DNA of 64,000 nucleotides, from positions 124,001 to 188,000 of the forward strand of contig NZ_MTQN01000005.1 of NCBI RefSeq assembly GCF_001984195.1, read 5' to 3'. The position numbers were made by a program, and so were the translations under genes. This document shows, piece after piece, positions 23,820-26,326 of the stretch (positions are counted from its first letter, which is position 1; each line of letters starts with the position of its first letter). The DNA comes from Kribbella sp. ALI-6-A. GTDB lineage: Bacteria; Actinomycetota; Actinomycetes; Propionibacteriales; Kribbellaceae. Under the pieces are notes generated by a model. It was not told where the DNA came from, ran no database searches, and saw nothing but the letters and a program-made list of their open reading frames with translations.

Positions 23820-25121
23820 TCAGCTGACCTTGGCGGCCGGGGCCACGAAAGTGTTGCAGGAGGCGGGGTTCGCGGTCTTGAACGCCGTACCGGCCCACAG
23901 CCACATGTTCTTGCGGGAGCCGTGGTCGCGCTTCTTCTTCGGATCGTACTCGTCGCCGGTGTGCTTGGTCTGCCACTCCCAGATCCGCAGCCGCTCACCG
24001 GTCAGGCCCAGGGCCGTCTTGTTCGCGCCGAGCCACGCCGCGCCGAGGCAGCTGGCCTGCAACTCCATCCGGCGGTTCTCCTCGAGCTTGGCCGCTTCGG
24101 TCTTCGCCCAGCCCTCCCGGGATCCGGACGAGATCAGGATGTTGGTGAGCATCTGGACGTGGTGCGCGTACTCGTGGGACAGCGTGTCCATCGCGCGGGC
24201 CCGGCCGGCCTCGGGGTTCTGCCGGAAGAACTTCGAGTCCTGGTCGCCGCGCATGGTGATGGTCTCGCCGTCACCACAGTAGAAGGCGGTGTCGGTGGGC
24301 TCGCCCAGGCACGAGGTCTGGCCCTTCGCGTACAGCTGCAGCTTCGGCGGCCGGAACTCGTAGCCGGCCTTGCGGACCAGCGGCGCCCACGCGCGGTTCA
24401 GGCACGGCAGCAGCGCCTGGTAGTACCGCAGCGCGGCGGCCTCCGTGGTCGGCTTGACCTTCGGCTCAGCACAGTTGACGGAGGCAACCTTCCCGGCCTT
24501 GTACAGACCGTTCTGCTTCACCCGGACGGCGTCCGGGACCGGCTGCACGGTCACCGTGACCGTCGGCTGCGGTGGCGCCGGGAGCGGCTCGGTCTGCTTC
24601 ACCGACGGCTTGGACAGCGGGCTCGCGACGGTGTCGAACGTGTCCATCGCGCGGTATCCGAGCAAAGCGGCACCGGCCAGGGCGACGATTCCGGCGACCG
24701 CGCCGGTGATCACCACCGGCTTCGGCAGCCGCCGCGCCGGACCGGCCGGCGTCGGGTCGCTGAACTGCGGCGCCCGGCGGCTCGACGGAGAGTTCCAGCC
24801 CACCGGCCGGCTGCCACCCCGCTGTCGAGCGCCGGTCAACGGCGCCGACGGGGCCCCCGGCAACGGAGCCGGAGGAGGGGCGCCGAACCCGGTCTGCCCG
24901 TCCTCGGTCGGCAGCGGAGCACCCTTGCGCTGAGTGGGTTCGTCCGCGGAGATCGGCTTGGCCTTGCTGAGCCCCATCGGCTGCGGGCGTCGTACCGGCC
25001 GGGAGACCGCCTCCTGGGAAGGACCGGGCTCGCCGTCGCCACCGGGCAGGAAGTGGCCGGGGGCGGGCACGGTCGGCTGGGACTCCGGTGCCGGGTCGGG
25101 CTCGGTGGGGGCGTCGGTCAT
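23820..25121 (-). CDS. Neutral zinc metallopeptidase (YpfJ-like), membrane-anchored
   Basis: 433 residues. A Pro-rich cytoplasmic N-terminus (about 140 residues), one TM helix (VVITGAVAGIVALAGAALLGY), then an extracellular YpfJ-type domain. The zinc motif H316-E317-Y-A-H320 lies in DTLSHEYAHHVQ. ERRMELQASCLGAAWLG and the paired cysteines (CAEP, PCLNRAW, SCLGEP, FYCGDG, SCNTFV) complete the family pattern. Its substrate is unknown. It lies 20 bp downstream of a paralogue that lacks the zinc motif; both share C-terminal KTxNPASCNTFVAxxAKVS-like ends and a GHFLPGG segment at the N-terminus. Confidence 0.87.
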   Translation of the reverse strand: MTDAPTEPDPAPESQPTVPAPGHFLPGGDGEPGPSQEAVSRPVRRPQPMGLSKAKPISADEPTQRKGAPLPTEDGQTGFGAPPPAPLPGAPSAPLTGARQRGGSRPVGWNSPSSRRAPQFSDPTPAGPARRLPKPVVITGAVAGIVALAGAALLGYRAMDTFDTVASPLSKPSVKQTEPLPAPPQPTVTVTVQPVPDAVRVKQNGLYKAGKVASVNCAEPKVKPTTEAAALRYYQALLPCLNRAWAPLVRKAGYEFRPPKLQLYAKGQTSCLGEPTDTAFYCGDGETITMRGDQDSKFFRQNPEAGRARAMDTLSHEYAHHVQMLTNILISSGSREGWAKTEAAKLEENRRMELQASCLGAAWLGANKTALGLTGERLRIWEWQTKHTGDEYDPKKKRDHGSRKNMWLWAGTAFKTANPASCNTFVAPAAKVS

Positions 25122-25141
25122 GGTGTTCCAGTCTTCTCGCG

Positions 25142-26326
25142 TCAGCTGACCTTGGCGGGGGCCGCCACGAAAGTGTTGCAGGAGGCAGGATTGCCGCTGC
25201 CGAAGCCCCGGCTCATCCACTGCTCGACGTTCTTGCGGGATCCGTGGTCACGGACCTTGTCCTTCGCGTCCTCGTCGCCGCTGTTCCTCGTCCGCCACTG
25301 GTACTTCGCGAGCAGCTCACCGCGCAGCGGGAACGTCGCCTTCTCCGTCCCGAGGAACACCGCCGACAGGCACGCGGCCTGCAACGCCTGCCGCCGGTCC
25401 AGTTCCAGCTCGGCGGTCTTGTTCGGCGCCGTGTCCCCCATCGACCCGGCCGCTTCGTAGATGCCGGTCAAGTGTTGTACGTGCAGGGCGTACATGTAGC
25501 CGAGGCCGACCGCGAGATCGACGCGCGCCAGCGGCCGGTTGTCGGCGAAGTCCTCCGGCCAGTCCTCCCAGCCCATCGCGAGCACGCCGCCGTCGGCCGG
25601 GCAGTAGGTGTCCAGCCCGTCGTCGTGCACGCCGCACGCGGTCTCCTGGCCGTTGTCGAAGATCACCAGCTTCGGCGGGTTGAACTCGGCACCGGCCTCG
25701 CGCACGACCGGCTCCCAGGCCTTGTTCAGGCAGCCGAGCAGCGCCTCGTAGTACGCGCGGACGTTGTCCTTGGTCGTCGGCCGGTACGCCGGCTCCTTGC
25801 ACCCGGCCGCGGCGAGCTTGCCGGTCGAGTAGAGCTTGTTCTGCGCGGTCACCACGGCGTCCGGCGTCGCCTCACCGGCCGGCTTGGCCGCGTCCGGGTC
25901 GTCGGTGCCGCGGACCGACGGCGCACCCATCGGGCTGGCGACGTAGTCGTCGAACGACGCGAGCAGCTTCATGCCGCCGAAGGCGAGTCCGGCGATCAGC
26001 ACCAGCACTCCGGCGACGATGCCGGCGACCAGCAGCTTCGACCGCTTCTTCGGCACGAACGGGATCGGCTCCGGCCGGTACCGCGCGTTGAACGCGGCGA
26101 CCGCGCGATCGCCAGGTGGCGGCGGACCGATCCGCGAACCGTGCAGCGGCGGCGGTCCGGCGGGCGCTTCGGCACCCAGCCGGGGCGTCGGCGCGGCGAG
26201 CGGCGTGCTCCCGGCGGTCAGTGGAGCCGTCCCGGCGGCCGGGGCCGTGGTCTCGGGAGAGGCGGGCTGGTCGCCGGTGCCGCCAGGCAGAAAGTGCCCA
26301 GGCCCGGGTGCTCCGTCGTTCGCCAT
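25142..26326 (-). CDS. YpfJ-like metallopeptidase paralogue without the HExxH zinc motif
   Basis: 394 residues with the same plan as the downstream gene: PGHFLPGG, Pro-rich N-terminus, one TM helix (LLVAGIVAGVLVLIAGLAFGG), extracellular domain. At the place of HEYAH it has Y277-M-Y-A-L281 (VGLGYMYALHVQHLTG), so both zinc His and the catalytic Glu are gone. The Cys pattern and the C-terminal RDHGSRKNVEQWMSRGFGSGNPASCNTF are conserved, so the fold is probably kept. A pseudo-enzyme that partners or restrains the active paralogue is plausible. ATG 26326 chosen because the MxxDGAPGPGHFLPGG start matches the paralogue; an ATG 12 nt upstream is possible. Confidence 0.85.
   Translation of the reverse strand: MANDGAPGPGHFLPGGTGDQPASPETTAPAAGTAPLTAGSTPLAAPTPRLGAEAPAGPPPLHGSRIGPPPPGDRAVAAFNARYRPEPIPFVPKKRSKLLVAGIVAGVLVLIAGLAFGGMKLLASFDDYVASPMGAPSVRGTDDPDAAKPAGEATPDAVVTAQNKLYSTGKLAAAGCKEPAYRPTTKDNVRAYYEALLGCLNKAWEPVVREAGAEFNPPKLVIFDNGQETACGVHDDGLDTYCPADGGVLAMGWEDWPEDFADNRPLARVDLAVGLGYMYALHVQHLTGIYEAAGSMGDTAPNKTAELELDRRQALQAACLSAVFLGTEKATFPLRGELLAKYQWRTRNSGDEDAKDKVRDHGSRKNVEQWMSRGFGSGNPASCNTFVAAPAKVS

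Follow-up and report, generated by a model that had tools for sequence, protein, structure and literature searches.

A PF04228 peptidase homolog without zinc-site residues is conserved directly upstream of a HExxH-bearing paralog across Kribbella

Kribbella is a soil bacterium. In the window (the whole stretch of Kribbella sp. ALI-6-A DNA that we analyzed, 64,000 nucleotides in length), two adjacent genes encode proteins of the PF04228 family, one that carries a HExxH zinc motif (here termed ACT) and a zinc-less twin in which the corresponding residues are substituted (here termed PSE). Both genes are on the minus strand with PSE upstream, so that the order of transcription is PSE then ACT, and their common strand and the 20 bp gap between them indicate that they probably form one operon. 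A preliminary description of the window had placed the pair at 23820-26326, and these limits proved to be exact. The genes and the features discussed below are as follows.

25142..26326, minus strand: PSE, zinc-less PF04228 twin, 394 amino acids, first gene of the pair, ATG at 26326
23820..25121, minus strand: ACT, PF04228 peptidase with HEYAHH, 433 amino acids, second gene of the pair, ATG at 25121
25122..25141, minus strand: PSE-ACT intergenic gap, 20 bp, from the gene coordinates
26279..26302, minus strand: PSE tail tag PGHFLPGG, residues 9-16, predicted cytoplasmic from sequence and topology
25038..25061, minus strand: ACT tail tag PGHFLPGG, residues 21-28, predicted cytoplasmic from sequence and topology
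25955..26038, minus strand: PSE membrane helix, model helix 97-124, from the model and hydrophobicity
24645..24722, minus strand: ACT membrane helix, model helix 134-159, from the model and hydrophobicity
25145..25861, minus strand: PSE outer pseudo-peptidase domain, residues 156-394, model pLDDT mostly >90
23823..24533, minus strand: ACT outer peptidase domain, residues 197-433, model pLDDT mostly >90
25484..25498, minus strand: PSE degenerate YMYAL, residues 277-281, aligned with ACT HEYAH
24162..24176, minus strand: ACT HEYAH, residues 316-320, zinc/catalytic motif, HExxH in 37/38 ACT orthologs
25385..25387, minus strand: PSE A314, at the place of the third ligand, Ala in 30 and Ser in 4 of 34 PSE
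24063..24065, minus strand: ACT E353 in RRMELQA, probable third zinc ligand, Glu in 123/124 HExxH members with one gap

When supplied with 7 and 24 extra upstream residues, respectively, ACT and PSE scored 44.2 and 56.3 bits against the PF04228 profile, and both are thus above its curated cut-off of 23.2. Against NF050010, the equivalog model for YpfJ/KPN_02809, the pair scored 51.8 and 54.8 bits, far under the cut-off of 250, which indicates that the two proteins are cousins of YpfJ and not YpfJ itself. The term “YpfJ-like” that had been applied to their outer domains is therefore apt in the broad sense of PF04228 membership, but not in the sense of the equivalog (about 50 against 250 bits). 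Each protein has a single hydrophobic helix, which peaks at residues 136-154 in ACT and 98-116 in PSE and bears out the transmembrane helix previously ascribed to both. Lys and Arg were in excess before the helix relative to after it in every sequence examined (33/33 PSE and 24/24 ACT), and so an N-in/C-out orientation is predicted for PSE and ACT. The N-terminal tails of both are proline-rich and were modeled at low confidence. The outer domain contains six Cys residues that are common to ACT and PSE, which agrees with the earlier statement that the Cys framework is kept.

Structural comparison of the ACT model gave matches to PgPepO (9fma; Z 8.6, rmsd 3.9 over 174) and neprilysin (1dmt; Z 8.6, rmsd 4.1 over 174), and the PSE model matched 3o0y (Z 8.3, rmsd 4.0 over 178), DPP3 (5e3c; Z 7.7, rmsd 3.8 over 190), and BepA (6ait; Z 7.1, rmsd 4.1 over 150). 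Many zinc proteases were listed for both models, with middling Z scores. Foldseek returned no match to the PSE model at E 0.001 or better, the ACT sequence had no relative among solved structures at E 1 or better, and a search of PHROGs gave no match.

Alignment of the two proteins sets ACT HEYAHH (residues 316-321) opposite PSE YMYALH (residues 277-282), as anticipated by the preliminary description, in which HEYAH was replaced by YMYAL in the upstream copy; the loss of the third ligand (E353 to A314) had been missed. The assignment of E353 as third zinc ligand is a probable one, from its conservation in 123 of 124 HExxH members. Other residues stand in PSE at the places of the two His ligands, of the catalytic Glu, and of the probable third ligand. 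Judged by sequence, ACT thus has the features expected of an active peptidase (HExxH and a Glu as third ligand) and PSE does not.

This difference extends to the orthologs of PSE, which were picked by overall similarity to PSE and not by motif. None of the 34 keeps any of the four zinc-site residues (HExxH plus Glu), and the site is still constrained, because all 34 fit the pattern [FY][VMLA]Y[GAS][VLIA]H. With five short domain matches removed beforehand, the zinc site was found to be lost in 34/34 PSE orthologs and in 3/127 of the other family members examined, which argues that its loss in PSE is not due to chance. In a study of the PF04228 enzyme KPN_02809, the protein bound one zinc, EDTA and DTT were inhibitory, and substitution of the first His of its HExxH motif (H171S) left about 0.4 zinc per molecule and hardly any activity (PMC3269727). 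By analogy with the effect of H171S, PSE is expected to be zinc-free and non-hydrolytic. The six conserved Cys residues of ACT and PSE would fit the inhibitory effect of DTT.

We examined the conservation of the pair in 38 Kribbella genomes, including that of the window. PSE is intact in 34 (the copy in G004 is cut at its N terminus by the end of a contig), and HExxH is missing from all 34 intact orthologs. A frameshift, possibly an assembly error, breaks PSE in two in G005 (L078:6773-8094). PSE is reduced in G030 to an N-terminal remnant consisting of only the tail and the TM helix (L081:5251-5664) and is absent from G008 and G031; with G005, these are the four of 38 genomes in which ACT is found without an intact PSE. 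G030 and G005 are natural PSE-less strains with an intact ACT. ACT lies directly downstream of PSE in every locus with both genes (33/33). The remaining genome with an intact PSE, G001, has its array interrupted by the end of a contig, and HEYGHH is found in an ACT domain on another contig; this is the one exception to the presence of a HExxH copy within the array (33/34 intact-PSE genomes), and every complete array with PSE also has a HExxH paralog. The neighboring GNAT-like and MscS-like genes, labeled by sequence reading alone, were each present in 36 of the 38 loci fetched, which indicates that the PSE/ACT loci are orthologs in place. Start codons were assigned by script for the 33 PSE and 24 ACT sequences of useful length and used for gaps and tails; the gap between the genes was 7–29 bp in the 20 loci, window included, that had an unbroken PSE and both starts assigned in this way.

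The preliminary description had called the two proteins an enzyme and pseudo-enzyme pair and had looked to relatives to show whether the pair and the motif loss are retained, whether a relative might have HExxH in the second copy, and whether the loss might be limited to one strain. With 33 of 33 loci paired in the same order and 34 of 34 PSE zinc-less, pairing, gene order, and motif loss are all genus-wide; no PSE ortholog has HExxH, and a loss limited to one strain is excluded. The description as an enzyme and pseudo-enzyme pair is thus supported.

Outside Kribbella, the PSE profile detected no PSE in 255 other genomes of the order, with the best 6 candidates per genome scored. The best match there had 229.8 bits and was a HExxH-bearing protein; intact PSE sequences score at least 563.7 bits. 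In 393 other genomes of the class, a sample that partly overlaps that of the order and for which the best 4 candidates per genome were scored, there was no match at 1e-50. A scan of named genomes with the same profile gave 20 loci, 19 from Kribbella and one titled “Streptomyces sp. SID13031,” which probably corresponds to G027 and is grouped in the same genus as the Kribbella set. A wider spread of PSE was thus rejected, the profile having found PSE in Kribbella only among the genomes of these samples.

ACT is followed by one to three further PF04228 copies in 28 of the 38 genomes (L045-L082), among which G018 has fragments only, and by no further copy in the genome of the window. Most of these further copies lack the tail tag, and many have N termini that are lipoprotein-like or membrane-anchored. 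The GHFLPGG segment that had been noticed in both proteins proved to be common to them in the longer form PGHFLPGG, which has two matches in the 8.1-Mb genome, in PSE and ACT and nowhere else; the reversed control pattern has none. The exact tag is present in 28/34 PSE and 19/38 ACT. Of 47 further array ORFs, some of which are fragments of PSE or ACT, one carries it, and this ORF is itself a piece of PSE. Among the 33 genomes in which both tails could be read, GHFLPGG was found in both proteins in 14, in PSE only in 14, in ACT only in 5, and in neither protein in none. The absence of a genome lacking it in both (0/33) has a p value of 0.049 if the genomes are taken as independent, which their phylogeny makes them not.

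In a tree of 160 domain sequences (one of 161 rows was removed) with the zinc columns masked, PSE formed one group (SH-aLRT 100), as did ACT (94) and the further array copies (97). ACT and the further array copies join with a support of 94, and PSE joins these weakly (45). Omega for the 22 closest pairs in each set was 0.08–0.51 for PSE and 0.07–0.85 for ACT, and mean pN over 190 shared genome pairs was 0.238 and 0.246, respectively; PSE evolves no faster than ACT. The ACT alignment A2 comprises 23 of the 38 ACT sequences. These comparisons indicate that PSE and ACT stem from the same duplicated PF04228 stock, that both His residues, the catalytic Glu, and the third ligand were lost once, before the sampled Kribbella species diverged, and that PSE has since been held directly before ACT by purifying selection, as judged from the sequences. 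PSE thus combines the ancestral loss, retention, and purifying selection that mark a conserved pseudoenzyme. A strain accident or random decay of PSE was ruled out by the 34 zinc-less intact orthologs together with the omega data.

Some positions set PSE apart from ACT, as seen in a comparison with 37 ACT sequences (G035 ACT was left out). R182, G247, F332, and P333 are invariant in 34/34 PSE; the usual residues of ACT at these places are Lys, Glu, Leu, and Gly. The residue just before the predicted strand PSE 248-252 is Gly in 34/34 PSE and Glu or Asp in 37/37 ACT. In a mirror-tree analysis, the distances of PSE and ACT correlated with r 0.84. Over 31 genomes, the PSE-ACT partial correlation given three neighbors was 0.14 (permutation p 0.05), which is no specific signal of co-evolution; PSE with the three neighbor genes gave 0.19, 0.30, and 0.76, each above the PSE-ACT value.

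Loss of HExxH was seen in three of the 127 members that are not PSE: G035 ACT, the fourth copy in G004, and one sequence from another family. G035 ACT (L056:7684-9153) has GMYGYH with Gly as third ligand, and the fourth array copy of G004 (L076:3236-4180) has GLYGYH with Gln as third ligand; these two are on separate branches of the tree, and the array of each still has at least one HExxH copy. The third, L142:586-2082, comes from a different family of the order and reads YEYTHH, with Gln at the third-ligand place; this PF04228 relative is probably another zinc-site loss, on a long branch with an unsure alignment and placement.

The genome of the window has 11 PF04228 matches, and one elsewhere in it, at C4, scores much higher than ACT or PSE, with 264.5 bits. 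A protein at C6 (L013:3409-4866; about 419513-420865 of C6 in this genome) contains two PF04228 repeats with 26% identity (E 1e-9), of which repeat 1 has HExxH and ELQADC and repeat 2 is without HExxH. Across this single-chain group, HExxH is present in repeat 1 in 29/29 rows and in repeat 2 in 0/28 rows that have one; two genes were entered twice, and so the rows stand for 27 distinct genes, 26 of them with a second repeat, and 7 of 28 matches from the class search were left out. The rows (L013; L149-L156, L158-L176) come from some Kribbella genomes, from a second family of the order, and from further families of the class. Most of the genomes searched gave no match to this protein, which was found in 7/117 genomes of the order (at 1e-20) and 20/296 of the class (at 1e-30). 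Pairing of a live and a dead domain has therefore been fixed at least twice in PF04228, once in cis (the single chain) and once in trans (PSE/ACT).

Pseudoenzymes are common, and several known systems resemble the pair in part. KPN_02809/YpfJ (NF050010) shares the PF04228 domain, and its HExxH matches that of ACT; ACT and PSE differ from it in scoring far below the equivalog cut-off, and PSE in having no zinc motif. In mitochondrial processing peptidase (MPP) alpha/beta and in bacterial M16B two-gene operons, an active zinc subunit stands beside a zinc-less homolog, as ACT does beside PSE, and M16A/C peptidases carry both halves in one chain where MPP has two subunits, an arrangement that the single-chain PF04228 proteins appear to resemble (PMC11266112). 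The M16 motif, HxxEH, is unrelated, and ACT has HExxH at the conserved site. The alpha subunit of MPP is essential for activity in the same account, whereas ACT stands without an intact PSE in 4/38 genomes (PMC11266112). TldD/TldE is a further bacterial metalloprotease with the metal site in one of two homologous subunits; its HExxxH and Cys ligand place it in another family from ACT, with HExxH and Glu at the third-ligand place, and its activity needs both subunits (PMC5810440). For ACT and PSE, a membrane anchor and an external domain are predicted. iRhoms and other pseudoproteases are membrane pseudoenzymes that bind without catalysis, as PSE might (PMC11266112); iRhoms differ from PSE in their rhomboid (serine protease) ancestry and in their role in eukaryotic trafficking.

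We consider it very probable that PSE is a functional pseudoenzyme and likely that it acts together with ACT; the reading that we favor, by a modest measure of confidence, has PSE regulate ACT or hold substrate for it, as a partner that is not obligatory. The homology, the motif loss, the genus-wide conservation, the gene order, and the common tag, as read from the sequences, are the ground of this proposal, and the absence of zinc from PSE, its contact with ACT, and the direction of its effect on ACT are the steps that we infer. Both proteins would be anchored in the cytoplasmic membrane, the proline-rich tail facing the cytoplasm and a disulfide-stabilized domain facing outward. PSE would meet ACT through the outer domains, through a shared cytoplasmic partner that reads PGHFLPGG, or through both, and would hold or present substrate or cap ACT without cutting. 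It would thereby tune ACT, an enzyme that would also work without PSE. The membrane complex suggested in the preliminary description, with PSE recruiting substrate or inhibiting, is plausible. The common tag, the gene order, the HExxH paralog in each complete array with PSE, and the single-chain live/dead form speak for it indirectly; the mirror-tree result, the ACT orthologs without the exact tag (half of the 38), and the four genomes without an intact PSE speak against a fixed partnership. Because ACT occurs without an intact PSE in four of 38 genomes, PSE is not obligatory, and it is unlikely to be half of an enzyme that depends on both subunits, as MPP does.

PSE could instead serve a partner other than ACT. 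As a free-standing receptor or scaffold, it would bind an extracellular peptide or wall ligand in its dead cleft and signal through its tail, and ACT would be merely a neighboring, probably co-transcribed paralog. The mirror-tree result without specific PSE-ACT co-evolution, the four genomes that have ACT but no intact PSE, the invariant PSE residues that are not common to ACT, and the strongly kept tag (28/34 exact) are as such a role would have them, but a HExxH copy is present in every complete PSE array, the same tag is on ACT and nowhere else in the genome, and live/dead pairing recurs in a single chain elsewhere in PF04228; we regard this role as unlikely. We give somewhat less credence again to a dominant-negative inhibitor or decoy that competes with ACT for substrate or dimer partners and so restrains proteolysis. 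Such a protein might be expected to have a predicted domain similar to that of ACT and the same tail, as PSE does, to come first in the pair, and to be dispensable, as a restraint would be and as PSE is in four genomes; the loss of the zinc site from two other array members, G035 ACT and the fourth copy of G004, also accords with it. The changed residue before strand PSE 248-252, however, implies that binding in the cleft may differ, and sequence does not separate restraint from substrate holding. Very little speaks for a functionless, decaying duplicate: the loss or breakage of PSE in G005, G030, G008, and G031 would suit decay, but 34 intact ORFs genus-wide, omega well below 1, a rate equal to that of ACT, and constraint on the zinc-free site make it highly improbable.

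A more general reading, which we put forward tentatively and think rather doubtful, is that PF04228 peptidases are two-lobed assemblies in which one lobe can drop its zinc and become a dedicated substrate-guiding half, and that this arose at least twice, within a single chain in several families of Actinomycetes and as two chains in the ACT and PSE of Kribbella. If the two-lobe model is true, a little-characterized family of bacterial membrane peptidases would have re-invented, independently, the single-chain/two-subunit principle of M16. The literature searched, mostly as titles and abstracts, held no account of live/dead pairing in PF04228, and a conserved enzyme/pseudoenzyme gene pair is new for the family as far as that literature shows. 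Few bacterial metallopeptidases paired with a dead partner were met there (MPP-like operons and TldD/E), and PF04228, itself little studied, shows two live/dead forms, a genus-wide gene pair and a single chain in several actinobacterial families. With four natural losses, the gene pair makes the contribution of the dead copy directly testable in a soil genus.

Two minor observations concern the copies and their upstream sequences. Four more PF04228 genes, all with HExxH, are clustered at C7 128000-145000 (L009) in the genome of the window. A ACTGGGGA-like stretch recurs about 10–20 bases before the ATG of many PSE and ACT orthologs and is possibly a leader or ribosome-binding sequence.
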